Source of the DNA: a bacterium
Lineage (GTDB): Bacteria > Hydrothermota > Tepidihabitantia > Tepidihabitantales > Tepidihabitantaceae
NCBI GenBank assembly: GCA_035505375.1
Contig: DATJQV010000064.1
Location: 1-50,284, forward strand
Direction: 5' to 3'
Length of the DNA stretch: 50,284 bases
Positions 38,785 through 48,904 of this stretch are shown here, piece after piece; position 1 is the first letter of the stretch; every line of letters begins with the position of its first letter. The position numbers were made by a program, and so were the translations under genes. The notes under the pieces are model-generated. The model was not told the origin of the DNA. It did no database searches and was given only the letters and a program-made list of their open reading frames with translations.

Positions 38785-39218
38785 AGCTCGGTGAGTTGAA
38801 GCCCGTGCCGGGCGCTACCAAGCCGCGCAAGCGGATCGGCCGCGGCATCGGGTCCGGCCATGGCAAGACTTCGTGCCGCGGGAACACGGGCGCGGGTCAG
38901 CATTCGGCGCCGCGGCACGACGCGCGGTTCGAGGGCGGCCAGATGCCGTTCTATCGCCGGATTCCCAAGCGCGGATTCGTCAACCCTACGCGGAAGGAGT
39001 TTGCCCCGGTCAACCTGACTGACCTGGCGAAGCTCGACGTCGACGTCGTTACCGTCGAGCTGCTGCGGGAAAAGGGCATTGTCGGTCGGTACGAGTCGGT
39101 GAAAGTCCTGGGTGACGGCGAGCTCGGCCGGGCGCTGTCGGTTACGGCCCACGCCTTCTCGAAGATGGCACGCGAGAAGATTGAGAAGGCCGGGGGCAAG
39201 GCCGAGGTCGCAAGTTGA
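38781..39218 (+). CDS. rplO: 50S ribosomal protein L15
   Basis: Late-assembly protein of the large subunit. The N-terminal KRIGRGIGSGHGKTSCRG, then QHSAPRHDARFEGGQMPFYRR and IPKRGFVNP, are standard, and the C-terminal half carries LLREKGIVGRYESVKVLGDGE. The GTG start 38781 follows ggagg (38772-38776) and overlaps the rpmD stop. The 145-residue length is normal. secY starts at the TTG that overlaps the rplO stop. Confidence 0.95.
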   Translation: MKLGELKPVPGATKPRKRIGRGIGSGHGKTSCRGNTGAGQHSAPRHDARFEGGQMPFYRRIPKRGFVNPTRKEFAPVNLTDLAKLDVDVVTVELLREKGIVGRYESVKVLGDGELGRALSVTAHAFSKMAREKIEKAGGKAEVAS

Positions 39219-40525
39219 CCGGTTCGCTCACCAGCGTCTTCAGAATTCCGGACCTGCGCCGGAAGATACTTTTCACGCTCGGGATGGTAGTGGTCTACCG
39301 GCTCGGGACGCACGTCCCCACTCCCGGCATCAACGCCCACGCCCTCGGCTGGATGCTGACGCAGATGCGGGGAACCGTATTCGGGCTCTACGACGTGTTC
39401 GTCGGCGGCGCGCTGTCGCGTGCGTCGCTATTCGCGCTCGGCGTGATGCCCTACATCTCGGCATCGATCGTGTTCCAGCTGCTCGGTTCGGTCTTCCCGT
39501 ACCTGGAGAGACTGCAGCGAGAGGAAGAGGGCCGCAAGAAGATTAACCAGTACACCCGCTATGCGACCGTCGCGCTGGCCATCATCCAGTCTTCGACCAT
39601 CGCCATCTATCTCGAGAACCAGCCGACTACGCAGTACGGGACAATCGTCATGCAGCCGGGATTCTCATTCCGGATCATCACGATCATGACCCTCACCGCG
39701 GGCACCATCCTGGCCATGTGGCTGGCCGAGCAGATCACCGACCGGGGTATCGGGAACGGCATGTCGTTCCTGATCTTCGTCGGCTGCCTCGATGACACGC
39801 CGAACTACATCAGCCGCACGCTGGGCATGGTTCGTTCCGGTGAGTCGTCCTGGCTGGCGCTGGCGCTGCTGGCCGCGCTCATCTTCGCGGTCTACGCCGG
39901 GGTTGTCCTGCTGACTATGGCCGTGCTCAAGATACCGGTCGTCTACCAGGGCCGGGTCGTGGGCCGGCAGATGTACCGCGAGCACCGCACCAACCTGCCG
40001 ATCAGGGTCTGGACCGCGGGCGTGATTCCCATCATTTTCGCGCAGTCGCTCGTCGTATTCCCCTCGACGTTCGCCCAGTTCCTGAGGGTGCCATGGCTTT
40101 CGTCCATGCAGCACATGCTGGTCGCCGGCGGCTGGCTGTATGACCTGCTCTACGCGGTCCTGATTATCTTCTTCACGTATTTCTACACATCGGTCGTGTT
40201 CAACGCGCGCGATATCGCCGACAACCTCAGGAAGTACGGCGGCGCGATCCCGGGAAAGCAGGCCGGGGAGAAGACCGCCCAGTTTATCGACCGCAGTCTG
40301 ACCCTTATCACATTGCCCGGCGCGATGACGCTGGTGATTATCGCGTTGTTGCCCGGGTTCCTGATGAATTCGCTCCGCGTGCCATTCTACTTCGGCGGCA
40401 CGACCCTCATGATCATCGTCGGCGTTTCGCTCGACACCCTGCAGCAGATCGAAGCCCATCTGGTGATGCGACACTATGAAGGCCTGGTCAAGGGTGGCAA
40501 GTTCCAGGGCCGTTCGTTCGGATAA
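39215..40525 (+). CDS. secY: Protein translocase subunit SecY
   Basis: Central channel of the Sec translocon in the inner membrane. About ten membrane segments are visible. The N-terminus IPDLRRKILFTLGMVVVYRLGTHVPTPG and the plug/TM2 region (SLFALGVMPYISASIVFQLL) are typical. GNGMSFLIFVG, IPVVYQGR, GVIPIIFAQSL, IADNLRKYGGAIPG and the C-terminal LMRHYEG-like VMRHYEGLVKGGKF complete the family pattern. The TTG start 39215 overlaps the rplO stop. The usual followers adk, map and infA are absent; an ECF sigma gene follows 36 nt later, an unusual neighbour. Confidence 0.95.
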   Translation: MTGSLTSVFRIPDLRRKILFTLGMVVVYRLGTHVPTPGINAHALGWMLTQMRGTVFGLYDVFVGGALSRASLFALGVMPYISASIVFQLLGSVFPYLERLQREEEGRKKINQYTRYATVALAIIQSSTIAIYLENQPTTQYGTIVMQPGFSFRIITIMTLTAGTILAMWLAEQITDRGIGNGMSFLIFVGCLDDTPNYISRTLGMVRSGESSWLALALLAALIFAVYAGVVLLTMAVLKIPVVYQGRVVGRQMYREHRTNLPIRVWTAGVIPIIFAQSLVVFPSTFAQFLRVPWLSSMQHMLVAGGWLYDLLYAVLIIFFTYFYTSVVFNARDIADNLRKYGGAIPGKQAGEKTAQFIDRSLTLITLPGAMTLVIIALLPGFLMNSLRVPFYFGGTTLMIIVGVSLDTLQQIEAHLVMRHYEGLVKGGKFQGRSFG

Positions 40526-40561
40526 TCCCGGAATACCCTCCGCCCGACAACGGTAGATTGA

Positions 40562-41134
40562 ATGAGTGAGCCCGAGGCGCGGGCAAGCGACGTCCAGCTT
40601 ATACACCGCGTCCGTTCGGGCGACAACGATGCTTTTGACGAACTGATGAAACGATACGCCGCCAGCGTGTACAAGGTCACCTACTCGCTCACCCGCAACC
40701 ACGCGGATGCCGACGACCTCTCCCAGGAGACATTCATCCGGGCCTACCGGGCGATTGCCCGGTTCGACGAGCGCTACCAGTTCTACACCTGGCTGCGGCG
40801 GATCGCCGTCAATCTCTGTTTCAACCACCTGAAGCGCGGCAAGAAGTTCCGTTTCGTGCCCTTACCGGAGTCTGACGGCGAGGCGGAATCGGTGGATATC
40901 GCGGATCCGAACCCGTCGGCGGCCGACTCTGGTCTGCGCCGGGACCTGGATGCGGCGCTGGCTCACCTGCCGCCCGACCAGCGGGCCGTTTTCGTGCTGC
41001 GGGTGGACGAAGAAATGAGTTACGACGAGATCAGCAAGGCGCTCAACATCCCGGTCGGCACGGTGATGTCGCGGCTGAACCGGGCACGCGAGAAGCTCCG
41101 TGGGCTCCTGCAGGAGTATCTTCCGGCAACATGA
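40562..41134 (+). CDS. ECF-family RNA polymerase sigma factor
   Basis: A 190-residue sigma-70 factor with only regions 2 and 4. Region 2 spans FDELMKRYAASVYKVTYSLTR, then ADDLSQETFIRAYRAI and FYTWLRRIAVNLCFNHLKR. Region 4 spans LAHLPPDQRAVFVLRVDEEM and SYDEISKALNIPVGTVMSRLNRAREKLR, given here in parts. It directs RNA polymerase to a dedicated promoter set, probably an envelope or uptake regulon. The next gene, its probable anti-sigma, starts at the overlapping ATGA. No standard promoter is seen in the 36-nt gap after secY, so it may be co-transcribed with the ribosomal genes. Confidence 0.92.
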   Translation: MSEPEARASDVQLIHRVRSGDNDAFDELMKRYAASVYKVTYSLTRNHADADDLSQETFIRAYRAIARFDERYQFYTWLRRIAVNLCFNHLKRGKKFRFVPLPESDGEAESVDIADPNPSAADSGLRRDLDAALAHLPPDQRAVFVLRVDEEMSYDEISKALNIPVGTVMSRLNRAREKLRGLLQEYLPAT

Positions 41135-42297
41135 GACGCGCATGTGATGCCATCCGACCTTTGCTCGGCGCGTTCGCCGACAAGGAACTCGACCCCGACC
41201 GGACCCGTCAGGTGCAGCAGCACCTTGAGACCTGCGCCGACTGCAGGCGGGAGCTGGACCAGATTGAAGGGCTCGGCAGGATCGTTCGCGGCGTGCAGCG
41301 CCCGCGGCTCGTAGATGATTACTGGGACTGGCAGCGCGACCGGGTCTGGCGCGGGATTCTGAGCGAGGGCCGCCGGCCACTCTTGAACCGCCGTCCCATG
41401 CAGGCGTGGACCAGACTCCTCATGCCGGTGATAAGCGCCGCGGTGCTTCTGATAGCGGTCGTCGCCGGCTGGCACCTGCTCAGCGAGAAGTCATTCATGA
41501 CCGGCAGGGGAATGGTCGTGGAACGCATAGTGAGCCAGGGCCGAGAATCTCCTTCGGTGGCGGCTCACGAAGAGCGTGGGCAGGTTGCCGCAGCGAAGCC
41601 TGTCGGCACCGGGGCTGCAGCCAGCGAGGGGCAGGTTGAGCTGGCCGCGACCCGGCCGGGGGCCGCGAAAGCCGAGGCAGGTTACGGAGGCAAAGGCCTG
41701 GGCGCGGCCGGTACTCCATCGAGAGCAAAGCTATCCCTTGCGGAAAACAGGGCCTCACCTGCGCGGTCGGCCGCGGCCGGGGAGAGGAGCGACGAGCTGG
41801 CTTCACTCCCGCCGGCGACGGCCCAGCCGGTTGCCGCCGCGTCGGGCGCGCGCGGCCGGATCGTCTCCGGACCGGTGCTGCTCGAGACGCCGCCGCTGGC
41901 GGACAAGGACGCGCTCGACACCGGCACCGTCCTGCTCGGCGTGAAGACCGACACCGGCGGCCGGGTCCTGAGCGTCGCCGTGCACCGGAGTTCGGGGTCG
42001 GCCAAAGTAGACAGCGTGGCCGTGCGTCAGATGCGCCGGTCGCGGTTCCAGGCCACGGTGAGGAACAACCGCAGCGTTTCGGCTTCCTTCGAATACCCTT
42101 TCCGCGTACAGAAGACGCAGACCAGGCAGTCGGTTCAGCCGGCGACCCCGAGCCAGCCGACGAAACTGAACCATACCGACAAATCAGTGAAACAGGGAGA
42201 CCAGCCGGCGGTGAAGTCGCAGGATACCGTCAACAAACAGGACGATTCTCCGGACAGCGGCCAGCAGCAAGGAAAGCCGACAAGGGCCAGCCGTTGA
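41131..42297 (+). CDS. Zinc-binding anti-sigma factor fused to a TonB C-terminal domain
   Basis: The cytoplasmic N-terminus has the ZAS zinc motif: C5, then H31, C35 and C38 (Cx25HxxxCxxC), typical of anti-sigma factors that hold ECF sigmas. One membrane segment is near residues 93-117. A long Ala/Gly/Glu-rich linker follows. Residues about 263-326 (GTVLLGVKTDTGGRVLSVAV, then SVAVRQMRRSRFQATVRNNRSV) match the TonB C-terminal fold. A Gln/Lys/Asp-rich tail of 60 residues ends it. The domain would sit in the periplasm, where TonB domains bind TonB boxes of outer-membrane receptors. Infer: the sensor reads receptor occupancy or competes with TonB. A separate tonB follows. Confidence 0.82.
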   Translation: MRRACDAIRPLLGAFADKELDPDRTRQVQQHLETCADCRRELDQIEGLGRIVRGVQRPRLVDDYWDWQRDRVWRGILSEGRRPLLNRRPMQAWTRLLMPVISAAVLLIAVVAGWHLLSEKSFMTGRGMVVERIVSQGRESPSVAAHEERGQVAAAKPVGTGAAASEGQVELAATRPGAAKAEAGYGGKGLGAAGTPSRAKLSLAENRASPARSAAAGERSDELASLPPATAQPVAAASGARGRIVSGPVLLETPPLADKDALDTGTVLLGVKTDTGGRVLSVAVHRSSGSAKVDSVAVRQMRRSRFQATVRNNRSVSASFEYPFRVQKTQTRQSVQPATPSQPTKLNHTDKSVKQGDQPAVKSQDTVNKQDDSPDSGQQQGKPTRASR

Positions 42298-42337
42298 GAA
42301 AAGAGACTAAGAAGTAGTTCCAGGCGTAAATTCATGG

Positions 42338-42368
42338 GCGGCGGTGGTTTACCACCGCCGCTTCTTTT
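42338..42368 (+). terminator. Rho-independent terminator
   Basis: GCGGCGGTGGT (42338-42348), a TT loop and ACCACCGCCGC (42351-42361) are followed by TTCTTTT. It ends the transcript of the sigma/anti-sigma genes. Confidence 0.9.
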
Positions 42369-42416
42369 CAAGACTCTCAGCTCGACCGGGATGGAATTGG
42401 GCTTCCAACCGCATGG

Positions 42417-42422
42417 TATATG
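42417..42422 (+). promoter_or_regulatory. Possible extended -10 box of tonB
   Basis: TGG followed by TATATG forms an extended -10 element just before the tonB Shine-Dalgarno sequence. No good -35 box is visible, so it may depend on another sigma, for instance the ECF factor next door. Confidence 0.35.
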
Positions 42423-42440
42423 AGAGTGCAGGAGGTCAAC

Positions 42441-43250
42441 ATGAAAGACAGAAGCTATTCCGTGAACTGCGGCCGGAATGGCCGCGAGGCAGCCACCGGC
42501 GCGCTCGTCCTGCACCGGATGGACGGCCAGCATGAAGCCCGCTTCTTCGGGGCCGCGCTGATGATGGCGGTATTGCTGCATGCCGGCCTCGTCCTTTGCT
42601 TCTCCAGGTCCCATACCGCGCCGGGGCCGAATCCCGGCCCGGCAGTGGTGCAGAACCCCAATGTGGAATTCAACGACGTGAACCAGGTCGAGCAGCCCGT
42701 TGACCCGAGCTACCGGCCCGAAGTCGCCCAGGTCCTGCCCGAGGTCGCGCCGAACCAGACCGCGAACGGTCCGGCGATCCCTGACCGGTCTCAGGGCAAG
42801 ATCGACCCGAACGTGATTGACGTGAACCCCGGCGGGGTCGGACCAACCCTCATCATCGGCAACAACCAGGTGTCGATTGAGTCACTGCTGGTCGGCGAGA
42901 AGTACGCGGCGAATGGCGTCCGGACCATCATCGGTGTCCGTACCCGCGTGCCCCCGGTCGCCGTTCCATGGGTCAAGGTCGAGGTCAAACCTCAACCGGT
43001 CAGCATTCCGGTGCCTGCCTACCCGGAAGTGGTTCGGGTCGCCGGCATCGAAGGCCGGGTCGTGGTCCAGGCGCTCATCGACACCGACGGCTCGGTCGCA
43101 GCCGTGCAGATGCTGGCCAGTTCGGGCAACGCGCTCCTCGACGCCGCGTCCTGTGAAGCGGCCCAGGGCGCGAAGTTCACCCCGGCCCGGGAGCGTGACA
43201 AACCGGTGGCCGTCTGGGTCTCAATACCCTTCCAGTTCCATCTTCACTAG
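42441..43250 (+). CDS. tonB: Energy transducer TonB
   Basis: ATG 42441 is chosen because AGGAGG lies 5 nt upstream; an in-frame ATG at 42420 lacks one. One membrane segment is near residues 35-55 (FFGAALMMAVLLHAGLVLCF), with a histidine in it like the proton-relevant His of E. coli TonB. A Pro/Val-rich periplasmic linker (about 60-180) follows. The C-terminal domain (about 185-269) reads PAYPEVVRVAGIEGRVVVQALIDTDG and ends FTPARERDKPVAVWVSIPFQF, standard for TonB. It couples the proton gradient to outer-membrane receptors. Together with the preceding TonB-domain anti-sigma it suggests a receptor-linked regulatory unit. ExbB and ExbD are not in the window. Confidence 0.9.
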   Translation: MKDRSYSVNCGRNGREAATGALVLHRMDGQHEARFFGAALMMAVLLHAGLVLCFSRSHTAPGPNPGPAVVQNPNVEFNDVNQVEQPVDPSYRPEVAQVLPEVAPNQTANGPAIPDRSQGKIDPNVIDVNPGGVGPTLIIGNNQVSIESLLVGEKYAANGVRTIIGVRTRVPPVAVPWVKVEVKPQPVSIPVPAYPEVVRVAGIEGRVVVQALIDTDGSVAAVQMLASSGNALLDAASCEAAQGAKFTPARERDKPVAVWVSIPFQFHLH

Positions 43251-43379: not shown

Positions 43380-43419
43380 CAGCCTCAACATCGCGAAGAC
43401 GAAGCCGTCTGATTCCACC

Positions 43420-45855
43420 ATGCACCCGCGGAAAGCAACAGCGTCACCGAGGTCGAAACCTGCCCGGAAACCGGTCACGGGAACCCGCGTCACGCTGACC
43501 ATCGTCGCCGCAATTATCTTCGGCAAGTGCGTGTCCCTCGCGCCCTGGCGGTCGTGGTTTGTGGGAAACGAGCGGCCGGCCGTCTTGCCGGGGCATTGGG
43601 CGCATCTGGTCATTGCGCTAGTCGTCATTCTGCTCTTACCGGTCGCCGCCCTGCTCCTGCTCAGGTCCGGGAAGAGCGGACGTCAGTTCCTCGACCGGAT
43701 TCGGGCATCACGTGCGCACACCACGATAGCGGTCCTCGCGGTCATCAGCTTCCTGCTCACCCTGCTGCCGGAGAGAGCCGGCGGCAGGTTGATGGTCGTC
43801 AATCTCGCCGTCGGCAGCGCCGCGCTCACATTCCTGGTTGCCGTCGGGTATCCGGTTCTGGAACGGCTGCTGGCAATCCTCCGCCCGGCATGGAGATTCC
43901 TGGTTCAGGGGCTCAGTCCCGCACCTTTCCTGTTGCTCTCGGCGGGCGCGGTGTTCACGCTCGCCAACCTGATTTCCTGGCTCGTATTCCGGCATATCCC
44001 TCACGTACAGGACAGCGTCAGCCAGGTTTTCCAGGCCCGGGTCTTTGCGTCGGGACGCGTGACTCTCCCGGTACGATTCGAGGACTTCTTCTTCGGCTAC
44101 GGTCAGCTGATCAACGACGGCTCGAGGATGTATGCCCAGTACCCATTTGGACACTCGCTGCTGCTGGCGCTGGGTACCCTGATTCACGCCGAATGGCTGG
44201 TCAACCCGCTGCTGGGGGCGTGTGAGATTGTCGTGCTCTACTTCCTCGGTCGGGAGCTCTATGACGAGATGACCGGTCGCATCGTTGCCCTGCTGGGCGT
44301 GGCCTCACCCTTTCTCCTCTTCATGTCTTCGGAGTACATGAACCACGCCTCGGCGCTGCTGTTTCTCTCGTTGTTCCTGCTCTTCTTCTTCCGCGCTGTC
44401 CGTCCGCTCCGCCGTTCCGAAGCATCTCCCGCCCCTCGTCCCTCGTCCCTCGCCCCTTCATCGGGCTTCGCCGACCCGCTACTCAGCGGCCTGTGCCTCG
44501 CGATGGCGCTGAACATCCGTCCGCTCAGCGCGCTGGCCGTTTCTCTGCCGATTGCCGGCTACGGCGTCTACCTTCTGCTCAAGTCCCGATGGAGGACGTT
44601 GCCGGCGTTTCTGCTTCTGCTGGTGCCGGTCCTGCTCGGCATCGCTGCGTACTGCCTCTACAACTACCTGACCACCGGCAACCCGCTCCTGTCAGGTTAT
44701 GAGGCGGATGGTCTGCTCAAGGACTGCCACGGCGGCTGGGGTCCTGGCTTCGGCCAACGTGGATTCGCGGCCCTGGGTCCGTACACCCTGCTCCGTGCGC
44801 TGATTCAGACCGGCAACAACCTCAACGCCCTCAACCTGCATCTATTTCAGAGTCCGTTTCCCGGACTCCTGCTCATCCTACTGCTCTTCCTGACGTTCAC
44901 CCGCAACCCGGCCGATTGGGCGTTGCTCGGAGCATTTGTCGCGCTGCCTGCGCTGTACTTCTGCTACTGGTATCAGGACCTCTGCTTCGGGCCACGGTTC
45001 CTTTATGAAGCAGTCGCGCCCGCGCTGCTGCTGAGCGCACGCGGGCTGATTGAATTCCCGAGATTCATTCGTCGGGCAGTCGGTGCCGCAGCCGAGACCC
45101 GGACGCAGAACGTGCTCGCCATCGGCATGGCCATTTCCCTGGCCACGACCGCGGCGGTCGGCCTGCCCAGGCTGCTTCGGACCTACGGCAACCGGTATTG
45201 GGGCGTGGACAACCGGATTGACGCCATTGTGAAGGGACGCGGCATCAACAATGCCATCATCTTCTTCGGCAGCCCGCCGTCCGACACGTTCCAGAACTAC
45301 TACGGCGCCGGGTTCCTCCGCAACAAGCTCGACTTCGCCGGGCCGGTTATCTACGCCAGAAATGGCGGCCTCGCCAATTACCTGCTCATGCTGCGATTCC
45401 CCAACCGCGCATACTACTACGCTGACTGCGACACCTTCTTCAGGATTCCCGACATCGACCGGCTCCGCAACGCGCCTCCCATCCGGGACCTGGAGCAGAC
45501 CGCAAGCTTCGTCCGTGAGACCGGTTTTCCGGGACACCGTATCCTCCTCTTGCCCAACCGCGAGTTCGCGACCGTGTTCGGCGGGGAAAGCGTGCCCTTT
45601 CGTACCTTCAGCGAGGTCGACTACGACATACTGCGGGGTAGATTCCAGCCGTCCGGGCTGATGCCTGCGCTCGCCGTCTTCATGCCCGCCGACCAGCGCA
45701 CCTACCTGCCGCTATTCGGGCCGATGGCCGGGCACCAGAGCTACACGAGCGACGGCTATCGTTTCACCCTCCTGTTCGCGGCCGACAACGGAACGTACCT
45801 GGTCTACGACGTCCGGCCGGTCGGTGACGAAGGCACAGGCAGGCCCGGCGGATAG
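43420..45855 (+). CDS. GT-C-type polytopic membrane protein, probable glycosyltransferase
   Basis: An 811-residue membrane protein with about 12 hydrophobic segments and a soluble C-terminal domain (about residues 600-811). The first external loop has FRHIPHVQDSVSQVFQARVFASG, where an Asp (HVQDS) sits where GT-C enzymes of the PMT/ArnT (GT39) type have their catalytic acid. The later loop motif RFEDFFFGYG and the FGPRFLYEAVAP segment are seen in related uncharacterised proteins. Donor and acceptor are unknown. A Pro/Ser-rich stretch (SEASPAPRPSSLAPSSG) between two membrane segments comes from a ccctcgt simple repeat at 44427-44465. ATG 43420 is chosen from the promoter position. The gene stands alone between a terminator and array A4. 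Confidence 0.7.
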   Translation: MHPRKATASPRSKPARKPVTGTRVTLTIVAAIIFGKCVSLAPWRSWFVGNERPAVLPGHWAHLVIALVVILLLPVAALLLLRSGKSGRQFLDRIRASRAHTTIAVLAVISFLLTLLPERAGGRLMVVNLAVGSAALTFLVAVGYPVLERLLAILRPAWRFLVQGLSPAPFLLLSAGAVFTLANLISWLVFRHIPHVQDSVSQVFQARVFASGRVTLPVRFEDFFFGYGQLINDGSRMYAQYPFGHSLLLALGTLIHAEWLVNPLLGACEIVVLYFLGRELYDEMTGRIVALLGVASPFLLFMSSEYMNHASALLFLSLFLLFFFRAVRPLRRSEASPAPRPSSLAPSSGFADPLLSGLCLAMALNIRPLSALAVSLPIAGYGVYLLLKSRWRTLPAFLLLLVPVLLGIAAYCLYNYLTTGNPLLSGYEADGLLKDCHGGWGPGFGQRGFAALGPYTLLRALIQTGNNLNALNLHLFQSPFPGLLLILLLFLTFTRNPADWALLGAFVALPALYFCYWYQDLCFGPRFLYEAVAPALLLSARGLIEFPRFIRRAVGAAAETRTQNVLAIGMAISLATTAAVGLPRLLRTYGNRYWGVDNRIDAIVKGRGINNAIIFFGSPPSDTFQNYYGAGFLRNKLDFAGPVIYARNGGLANYLLMLRFPNRAYYYADCDTFFRIPDIDRLRNAPPIRDLEQTASFVRETGFPGHRILLLPNREFATVFGGESVPFRTFSEVDYDILRGRFQPSGLMPALAVFMPADQRTYLPLFGPMAGHQSYTSDGYRFTLLFAADNGTYLVYDVRPVGDEGTGRPGG
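44427..44465. repeat. ccctcgt tandem repeat within the GT-C gene
   Basis: About four copies of a ccctcgtc / ccctcgcc heptamer-like motif are inserted in frame between two membrane segments. It resembles the repeat insertions in folC and tilS. Confidence 0.6.
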
Positions 45856-46232: not shown

Positions 46233-46478
46233 CCTCCTGCACTGCCCGGCAGGGGCTCCTGCCAACGGTGTAGGGGGTGAGAGGGTGGACTTGCGAGCTA
46301 CAGGCCTAACGCCTTGCGCACCAAGCAGATAGCCCCGGCATCCGCCCCGGCGTCTTGTAGCCGTATTTGCATACAAGCCCGCCCAATCTCCAATCGACAA
46401 TCTGCAATCCAGAATCCAAAATGTGCCCCACCCTCGACCCCTCGAATCCTGGATTCCTTGCCCCCTGGTCTTCTCTGC

Positions 46479-46507
46479 TTGACACACGCCTCTCATGCTG
46501 GTATAAC
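46479..46507 (+). promoter_or_regulatory. hsdR promoter (TTGACA, 17 bp, TATAAC)
   Basis: TTGACA at 46479-46484 and TATAAC at 46502-46507 with a 17-bp spacer, 30 nt before ATG 46538. Confidence 0.75.
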
Positions 46508-46537
46508 CTCCAGCGTGTTAGAGACCGGTTCAGCCTG

Positions 46538-48904
46538 ATGGGATTGAACGAAGCCGACACTTGTCGCAAGTTCGTCTTGCCGAAGCTGCTGGCCGCGGGT
46601 TGGGATAGCGACCCCCATTCCATAGCCGAGCAGAGAACGTTCACCGACGGCCGCATCTTCGTTGTCGGCGGCAAGACGGGACGCAGGAAGCAGAAGCGTG
46701 CCGACTACCTGCTCCGCTACACCCGCGACATTGCGCTCGCAGTTGTTGAGGCCAAGGCCGAGTACAAGCTGCCCGGCGATGGAATTCAGCAGGCCAAGGA
46801 CTACGCCGAGACTCTGAACCTCAAGTTCGCCTACTCCACCAACGGCAGCGGTATCATCGAGTTCGACTATCTGACCGGCGGCGAACGTGAGGTCGAGACA
46901 TTCCCGACGCCGGACGAGTTGTGGCTCCGCCTGCGGGGCAAGTCAAAGCTATCGAAGGAATCCACCGAACGTCTACTCACGCCCGGCCTGCATACTCCGG
47001 GCAAGACCCCGCGCTACTACCAGGAAATCGCAATTAACCGTGCGATGGAGCACATCCTCTCCGGCAAGCAGCGCACGCTCCTGACGCTGGCAACGGGCAC
47101 GGGCAAGACGTTCATCGCCTTTCAGATATGCTGGCGGCTCTGGAACAGCCGCTGGACCCGCAACGGCGAGTATCGCCGACCGCGCATCCTCTACCTGTCC
47201 GACCGGAACATCCTCGTGGACGACCCCAAAGTGAAGGACTTCAAGCCGTTCGACAAGGCGGCATGGAAGATAGAGAACGGCGTTGCGAACAAGAGCCGCG
47301 AGATGTACTTCGCCATCTACCAGGCGTTGGCCAAGGACGAGGCAAGACCCGGCCTGTACAAGGAATACCCGCAGGACTTCTTCGACCTCGTTGTGGTGGA
47401 CGAGTGCCACCGCGGCAGTGCGCGCGACGACTCCAACTGGCGCGAGGTTCTTGACTACTTCGAGCCGGCCTACAAGCTGGGCATGACCGCAACGCCTCTG
47501 CGCGAGGAGAACCGTGACACCTACCTCTACTTCGGCAACCCGGTCTACACCTACAGCCTCAAGCAGGGTATCGACGACGGGTTCCTTGCGCCTTACCGCG
47601 TTCATCGCATCCTGACTTCCTTCGACGCGGCCGGCTGGCGGCCGGACAAGGGCCAACTAGACCGCTACGGCCGTGAGATTCCTGACGGCGAGTACCAGAC
47701 TAAGGACTTCGAGCGAGTCGTAGCCCTGCGCGTGCGCACGCAGGCGATCGCGCGCAACATCTCCGACTTTCTGGCTTCAACCGATCGCTACGCCAAGACG
47801 ATGGTCTTCTGCGTGGACCAGGAACACGCGCGGGAGATGCGGAGTGCGCTGGTGAAGCTTAACCCCGACATCGTGGTCCAGTACCCCGATTACTGCTGCC
47901 GTGTAACCGCCGACGAGAAGGAAATCGGCATGGGCCACCTGGGCAAGTTCCAGGACGTGGAGACCCGTTCGCCGGTCATCCTGACGACGTCGAAGCTCCT
48001 GACCACGGGCGTTGACGCGCCAACCTGTCGGAACATAGTGATAGCCCGCGTGGTCAACTCACTGGTCGAGTTCAAGCAGATGATTGGGCGCGGCACGAGG
48101 GTTCGCGATGACTACGGCAAGCTCTACTTCAGCATCCTCGACTACACGGGCAGCGCGACCCGACTCTTCGCCGACCCCGAATTCGACGGCGAACCCGAGC
48201 TGCTGGATGAGGTTGATATAGACGACAACGGCAGACCGAAGACACCGCCCAAGCCGCTCAAACCCGAGCCATTGCTACCGCCCGATGAGCGCACGACCGT
48301 CGTCATTATCCATGACCGACAATCGGAGCCCCCTCGCAAGTACTACGTTGACGGCGGCACCATCCAGATTGCCGCGCAGCTTGTGTATGAGCTGGATGCA
48401 GACGGCAAGCAGTTGCGCGTGATGGAGCTGACCGACTATGCCGCCGAGAAGGTGCGCAAGCTCTTTCCCAACTCTGCCGAGTTGCGCAAGAAGTGGGCCG
48501 ATGCCGGCCAGCGCACGGAGATCATTCTGCAACTGGCAGAGCGGGGCATCTCCTTCGACGACCTGGCCAGGGTTACGAAACAGCCGGATGCTGATCCGTT
48601 CGACCTGCTCTGCAACATTGCCTTCAACGCGCCGCTGCGCTCGCGCCGGGAACGGGCGGAGCGGCTCCGCAAGGAAGAGAAACGGTTCTTCGAGAAGTAC
48701 CAGCCCGAGGCGCGGCAGATACTGGATGAACTGCTGGAGAAGTATGCCGACTTCGGAGCGGCTCAGTTTGAGTTACCCGACATCCTGAAGGTCCCGCCGA
48801 TATCAGAGCACGGCCGAGTGACCGAGATAGCCGACAAGTTCGGCGGGCCGGAGAAGCTGCGCGAGGCAGTAGGCGAATTGCAGGCGCTGCTGTATGCGGC
48901 CTAG
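46538..48904 (+). CDS. hsdR: Type I restriction enzyme R subunit
   Basis: Motor and nuclease subunit of a type I restriction-modification complex. ATG 46538 starts MGLNEADTCRKFVLPKLLAAGWD, the usual beginning, and lies just past the promoter; upstream in-frame codons run through repeats. The nuclease core reads RADYLLRYTRDIALAVVEAKAEY (D...ExK). Helicase motifs: LATGTGKTFIAF (Walker A, near residue 185), VVVDECHRG (DECH box, near 287), GMTATP and the C-terminal QMIGRGTRVRDD. The C-terminal third is acidic and helical. At 788 residues it is of the shorter EcoEI-like kind. No specificity subunit is in the window; M lies downstream but appears broken. Confidence 0.92.
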   Translation: MGLNEADTCRKFVLPKLLAAGWDSDPHSIAEQRTFTDGRIFVVGGKTGRRKQKRADYLLRYTRDIALAVVEAKAEYKLPGDGIQQAKDYAETLNLKFAYSTNGSGIIEFDYLTGGEREVETFPTPDELWLRLRGKSKLSKESTERLLTPGLHTPGKTPRYYQEIAINRAMEHILSGKQRTLLTLATGTGKTFIAFQICWRLWNSRWTRNGEYRRPRILYLSDRNILVDDPKVKDFKPFDKAAWKIENGVANKSREMYFAIYQALAKDEARPGLYKEYPQDFFDLVVVDECHRGSARDDSNWREVLDYFEPAYKLGMTATPLREENRDTYLYFGNPVYTYSLKQGIDDGFLAPYRVHRILTSFDAAGWRPDKGQLDRYGREIPDGEYQTKDFERVVALRVRTQAIARNISDFLASTDRYAKTMVFCVDQEHAREMRSALVKLNPDIVVQYPDYCCRVTADEKEIGMGHLGKFQDVETRSPVILTTSKLLTTGVDAPTCRNIVIARVVNSLVEFKQMIGRGTRVRDDYGKLYFSILDYTGSATRLFADPEFDGEPELLDEVDIDDNGRPKTPPKPLKPEPLLPPDERTTVVIIHDRQSEPPRKYYVDGGTIQIAAQLVYELDADGKQLRVMELTDYAAEKVRKLFPNSAELRKKWADAGQRTEIILQLAERGISFDDLARVTKQPDADPFDLLCNIAFNAPLRSRRERAERLRKEEKRFFEKYQPEARQILDELLEKYADFGAAQFELPDILKVPPISEHGRVTEIADKFGGPEKLREAVGELQALLYAA

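Follow-up and report, generated by a model that had tools for sequence, protein, structure and literature searches.

A zinc anti-sigma factor with a TonB-like periplasmic domain and its ECF sigma factor in candidate division WOR-3: a possible envelope circuit linked to TonB

To our knowledge, the signals known to pass from the outer membrane to ECF sigma factors do so via a dedicated receptor domain (STN) together with FecR. In such FecI/FecR/FecA systems, and likewise in FoxI/FoxR and PupI/PupR, an ECF sigma factor is combined with a single-pass anti-sigma factor whose periplasmic part takes an envelope signal, with a link to TonB. The class I (ASDI) zinc anti-sigma factors, such as RsiW, ChrR, RsrA, and DdvA, carry an Hx3Cx2C motif, are encoded by genes overlapping the ECF gene, and have a membrane anchor in many cases. 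The TonB energy transducers are composed of a single N-proximal helix, a long linker, and the TonB C-terminal fold. The GltJ/AgmX protein of Myxococcus gliding has one helix and a cytoplasmic zinc ribbon, which binds a motility switch, and involves no sigma factor. We know of no TonB-like domain in the dual membrane-spanning anti-sigma factors Dma1 and Dma2 of Bacteroides. A TonB-like tail has been noted for GltJ/AgmX (PMC8262864), and the text of the class I anti-sigma classification does not mention TonB (PMC7406223). Sigma factors are not mentioned in a 2025 paper on the evolution of TonB and TolA.

The locus described here lies in a stretch of 50,284 nucleotides, called the window below. 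The host is uncultured; relatives on named contigs belong to candidate division WOR-3 and identify the host as a member of it. An earlier note, made from the sequence alone, had proposed that an ECF sigma factor, an anti-sigma factor with a TonB domain, and a TonB may form a receptor-sensing system, and knew of no study of the arrangement. The literature searched agrees with the latter point, as no system combining a zf-HC2 or anti-sigma domain with a TonB C-terminal domain was found there.

The locus and its spread

The features of the locus are collected in Table 1. The gap between secY and the sigma gene measures 36 nucleotides in every family genome that has the junction on a contig, and the start of the anti-sigma gene overlaps the sigma stop codon (ATGA). 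The sigma factor is 61 to 88% identical to its orthologs, and its nearest NCBIfam models are PRK11922, SigE, SigW, and RpoE, all scoring under their cut-offs. For tonB, the start at 42441 is preferred because AGGAGG precedes it, the start at 42420 falling within the promoter motif. By sequence, tonB lies outside the sigma/anti-sigma transcription unit, since a terminator and its own promoter motif intervene. Its product is the genuine TonB that the earlier note had expected, and its closest kin are the TonBs of Exb operons.

Table 1. Features of the sigma/anti-sigma/tonB locus (positions in the window)
Feature	Position	Strand	Evidence or remark
secY (context)	39215..40525	+	upstream neighbor of the sigma gene
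Promoter motif GGAATA-N16-GGTAGAT ahead of the sigma gene	40530..40558	+	as GGAATA-N16-NGTAGAT in 9/9 sigma-bearing family genomes
ECF sigma factor, 190 aa	40562..41134	+	Pfam Sigma70_r2 67 bits, r4_2 74 bits
Anti-sigma factor of 388 aa, anchored in the membrane, with its zinc domain in the cytoplasm and its TonB-fold domain in the periplasm	41131..42297	+	
zf-HC2/ZAS domain, residues 5-39, H31-x3-C35-x2-C38	41143..41247	+	zf-HC2 44.4 bits
Single transmembrane helix, residues 96-114, without His, N-in	41416..41472	+	positive-inside count
Low-conservation linker, residues 115-243, largely disordered in the model	41473..41859	+	
Periplasmic TonB-C-fold domain, residues 244-327, strand-strand-helix-strand, without YP/first-helix segment	41860..42111	+	
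Intrinsic terminator between anti-sigma gene and tonB	42340..42362	+	
Promoter motif GGAATT-N16-GGTATAT, 19 nt ahead of the tonB start	42393..42421	+	
TonB, 269 aa; complete TonB_C including the YP segment; TM helix contains a His	42441..43250	+	TonB_C 72.5 bits

Downstream of tonB, positions 43417 to 45855 encode a large multi-pass membrane protein, which weakly resembles glycosyltransferases of the LA_3751/3752 family and has no Pfam match, and a long ORF at 46367 to 48904 reads like a type I restriction or DEAD-box helicase subunit.

The spread of the locus was surveyed by protein search, by profile search of 147 genomes of the phylum, and by Pfam scans. The search within the phylum for zf-HC2 plus TonB C-terminal architectures beside ECF sigma genes found the fusion in no fewer than 15 genomes, namely, 9 of the 18 genomes of the window's family (f1), one genome of the same order (G102), and at least five of a second family of the same class (f6), with cut-off copies in two further f6 genomes. 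A profile scan of contigs yielded only five loci, all from WOR-3, and the plasmid search gave no further zf-HC2/TonB-fold fusion. Within f1, the nine genomes with the fusion, and no others, have the sigma gene, which adjoins the anti-sigma gene in all nine, as it does in G102 and in the f6 genomes where a contig covers the pair.

Some of the relatives depart from this layout. In f6 (L058, L060, and L064), the pair sits behind lysine-pathway-like genes and not behind secY, and the TonB-like domain is shorter still. The anti-sigma gene of G118 (L053:5183-6948) reads through an in-frame TAG, and the sigma gene of G115 (L050:9432) lacks a standard start codon where its orthologs have theirs; either may be a sequencing error or a real difference. 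The anti-sigma factor of G119 (L056:916-1602) has just 229 residues, with about 20 to 30 from the helix to the TonB-fold domain.

Domains of the anti-sigma factor

Two marks of the class I zinc anti-sigma factors (ZAS/ASDI), a zf-HC2 domain with Hx3Cx2C and an adjoining ECF gene, are present, in line with the zinc motif reported by the earlier note. The residues H31, C35, and C38 are invariant across 16 sequences, and a profile of eight orthologs finds DdvA (PDB ID 8rlz, E value of 4e-6) and RsiW (PDB ID 5wuq, E value of 4e-4) as sequence relatives of the zinc domain. Judging by family membership, this domain probably holds the cognate sigma factor. The membrane segment is the sole hydrophobic helix of the protein, as had been claimed, and is preceded by five Lys or Arg residues and followed by two. 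The C-terminal domain is placed in the periplasm: in this family of proteins it is the zinc domain that binds sigma, which requires it to be cytoplasmic, and the charge count agrees. The tested alternative, a C-terminal domain in the cytoplasm, was not borne out.

The C-terminal domain matches TonB_C with 29.9 bits (gathering cut-off of 24.6) over profile positions 15 to 76 of 79, with the first-helix/YP segment missing. In the AlphaFold2 model of the full anti-sigma factor, the domain has a pLDDT of about 90 over most of residues 270 to 320, and the domain modeled alone reaches a mean pLDDT of 86.4 and a pTM of 0.73, folding into a pair of long strands followed by a helix and a final strand. 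The top Foldseek matches in the PDB are TonB C-terminal domains with TM-scores of 0.5 to 0.7, the first being the Neisseria TonB bound to TbpA, which the eight-ortholog profile also picks by sequence (E value of 4e-9). Profile and fold models thus agree on the TonB C-terminal domain that had been read from the sequence. The domain is followed by a Gln/Lys/Pro-rich tail of 60 residues (42112 to 42297), which is also found in the two closest relatives, G114 and G115, and is short or absent in the others.

In an alignment of the anti-sigma factors with TonB and TonB-like proteins, mostly of the phylum, the YP-xx-A-xx-GI-EG segment of TonBs is absent from all f1 and f6 anti-sigma factors and kept only in the G102 ortholog, which has the full TonB C-terminal domain. 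Retained are the core (SSG, LD, A, and F) and, in f1, also the last strand. Measured against an energy transducer, the protein has the C-terminal fold and lacks the YP/first-helix segment. The motor-binding motif of TonB, SHLS, has its His in the transmembrane helix (PMC12204202); a His is present in the helix of the window's TonB and in that of none of the 15 anti-sigma factors scanned, which makes it unlikely that the anti-sigma factor is driven by ExbB/ExbD.

Compared with the two closest relatives, the TonB-fold domain is 74% identical, the zinc domain 66% and 56%, and the linker 29% and 28%. As the best conserved part, the TonB-fold domain is under constraint in a changed form, and not debris. 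The AU test rejected (p of 6e-6) a tree in which the anti-sigma domains of f1 and f6 share one ancestor distinct from the TonBs; the branches are very long, and we do not rely on this result.

Promoter motif and putative regulon

The comparison of upstream regions yielded a bipartite motif, GGAATA-N16-GGTATAT, before the sigma gene, tonB, and further genes, which we propose, by sequence association, as the promoter motif of this sigma factor. Written as GGAATW-N16-GGTAKAT, it has two mismatch-free sites in the window, before the sigma gene and tonB, with 0.02 expected by chance at one mismatch. Family-wide, 21 sites compare with 4 for the reversed pattern and, with one mismatch allowed, 35 with 1 genus-wide. 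Among 30 genus sites, 18 lie at most 60 nucleotides from a start codon that has a Shine-Dalgarno sequence and opens an ORF of 100 aa or more; of random positions, 5.6% do so. The p value of 1e-15 overstates independence, as orthologous promoters were counted separately. Per megabase, genomes that carry the sigma gene hold more exact sites (17 in 28.5 Mb) than those lacking it (4 in 18.9 Mb; p of 0.04), a weak test of co-occurrence, and the motif is absent upstream of the sigma gene in the f6 genomes. Since the motif ends 4 nucleotides before the start codon, the sigma transcript may be leaderless or nearly so.

The genome of the window has five motif sites, which precede the sigma/anti-sigma pair, tonB, a VIT-vWA gene, the gene of a small basic secreted protein, and an LptE-like gene, the last lying 143 nucleotides downstream of its site. 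The VIT-vWA gene (L079:3298-5652) encodes a secreted protein of 784 residues with an AgmX/TonB-like tail; it scores 126 bits for VIT and, below the cut-offs, 19.9 bits for TonB_C and 36 bits for myxo_SS_tail, the latter cut-off being exceeded by the G114 ortholog. The motif stands before the VIT-vWA gene in eight genomes, this one and seven relatives. It is also found before tonB in G000, G105, G114, G115, G116, and G118, before exbD-tonB in G120, and before an exbB-exbD-exbD-tonB operon in G118. Further sites precede ARPP-1 (G115, G117, G118, and G120), a serpin gene (G114, G115, and probably G117, where the ORF is cut off), and a MuiA-family gene (G117). ARPP-1 was not found in the window's own genome and is thus not a target common to all. 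An exbB gene of this genome has only a candidate site, GGAACG-N16-GGTATAT (L076:3358), 302 nucleotides before its start with a sigma-70-like promoter between. The strongest sign that the pair governs tonB is that tonB keeps the motif even away from the sigma gene, which suggests that the sigma factor may control the supply of TonB.

Proposed circuit, alternatives, and comparison with known systems

Five receptors that have plug domains and segments resembling TonB boxes (for example, DEVVVTADR) are encoded in the genome, together with two ExbB/ExbD/TonB operons and an M50 site-2 protease. STN gave no match in the genome and FecR none in the anti-sigma factor or the genome, the controls of both searches being detected, and none of the five motif sites of this genome precedes a receptor operon, as judged by the motif alone. 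With both domains missing from the genome, we reject signaling of the FecIR type.

In our preferred reading, for which we see an even balance, the ECF sigma factor and its class I zinc anti-sigma factor run a circuit of the cell envelope that is coupled to the TonB system. The cytoplasmic zinc domain would hold the sigma factor, and the TonB-derived periplasmic domain may act as a sensory or gating module, most likely pairing by its edge strand with a partner in the periplasm or outer membrane of the type that TonB folds engage. On changed engagement, the anti-sigma factor would free the sigma factor by regulated proteolysis, for which the M50 protease is a candidate, or by a change of conformation. 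Going by the shared, conserved, and well-placed motif, free sigma would transcribe its own gene with the anti-sigma gene, the stand-alone tonB, and the VIT-vWA gene and, in relatives, probably also exbD-tonB, the exbB operon, and the ARPP-1 and serpin genes. As the weakest step, the extra TonB, being of the same fold, might vie with the anti-sigma domain for the partner, which would complete a feedback loop. Several observations count against this circuit: tonB adjoins the pair in only four of the nine family genomes (G000, G105, G119, and, as exbD-tonB, G120), the linker of the G119 anti-sigma factor is very short, and two genomes of 83 to 84% completeness without a detected sigma gene still have the motif before the VIT-vWA gene.

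The serpin, MuiA-family, and ARPP-1 genes point to general envelope stress no less than to TonB, and a rather doubtful alternative is an anti-sigma factor of the RseA/RsiW type. Its domain would serve only to cover a protease site or to recognize some stress ligand unconnected with TonB, and the TonB genes would be mere bystanders in a regulon for general stress. The sites before these genes and the small basic secreted protein gene, the more distant LptE-like gene, and the M50 protease would fit, as would the zf-HC2 proteins elsewhere in the phylum, whose different tails, such as TPR, imply that the tail is exchangeable. However, across many genomes the motif repeatedly precedes tonB, exb genes, and the VIT-vWA gene with its TonB-like tail, beyond what is expected of bystanders.

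The receptor sensing of the earlier note, in which the domain competes with TonB for the TonB boxes of loaded outer-membrane receptors and so controls sigma release, stands in part and is unlikely as a whole. In FoxA, the TonB box pairs via its backbone with the last strand of TonB, with Arg266 and Arg271 of TonB as secondary contacts (PMC6699858), so that little sequence would be needed, and the last strand is what the domain retains; by our reading of the numbering, the two Arg residues fall in the segment lost from the anti-sigma factor. The conserved periplasmic architecture is real, the linker, at about 130 residues, might be long enough to cross the periplasm, the G102 ortholog has the full domain, and the receptors with TonB-box-like segments, the lack of FecR and STN, and the presence of tonB in the putative regulon all agree with the proposal. 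Against it stand the loss of the first-helix/YP segment from every other anti-sigma factor of the set, the G119 linker, which is probably too short to reach the outer membrane, and the motif sites themselves, since no receptor gene was found behind any of the family and genus sites, the five of this genome included.

Intertwined dimers are formed by short TonB C-terminal fragments that lack the N-terminal part, which is also missing from the anti-sigma domain, so that together with the site before tonB a heterodimer of TonB-fold domains reading free TonB directly can be imagined; it is very improbable, as such dimers may be artefacts and the partner TonB varies between genomes.

Returning to the circuit coupled to the TonB system, we tentatively consider a more specific form, less likely than the circuit itself, namely, a self-contained TonB homeostat, in which the domain is a decoy that samples the periplasmic or outer-membrane ligands of TonB and the sigma factor tunes the amounts of TonB, Exb parts, and TonB-tailed proteins to the point where the decoy loses the competition. 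If true, transcription would be set by the demand for outer-membrane energy coupling and not by one nutrient. A TonB-derived domain in the place of the sensor, with tonB in the putative regulon, would let the cell gauge the demand on its energy-coupling machinery, and with the motif, regulon, and domain boundaries predicted, the idea can be tested in a laboratory strain of Escherichia coli, although the organism is uncultured.

In comparison with FecI/FecR/FecA, the anti-sigma factor described here has a zf-HC2 domain in place of FecR and a periplasmic TonB-like domain in place of the beta-solenoid and STN, and tonB, with no receptor gene found, lies behind the sigma motif. It differs from RsiW, ChrR, RsrA, and DdvA by its TonB-fold periplasmic domain, and from the TonB energy transducers by the cytoplasmic zinc domain before the helix and by the lack of the motor-binding His, the first helix, and the YP segment. 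With GltJ/AgmX it shares the order of cytoplasmic zinc domain, helix, and periplasmic TonB-like tail, a likeness by description only. Dma1 and Dma2 likewise reach towards the outer membrane (PMC13088901), and the means of contact differs. ECF/anti-sigma pairs as such are known; new here are the TonB-tailed zinc anti-sigma factor and the promoter motif that links the sigma, tonB, and VIT-vWA genes.
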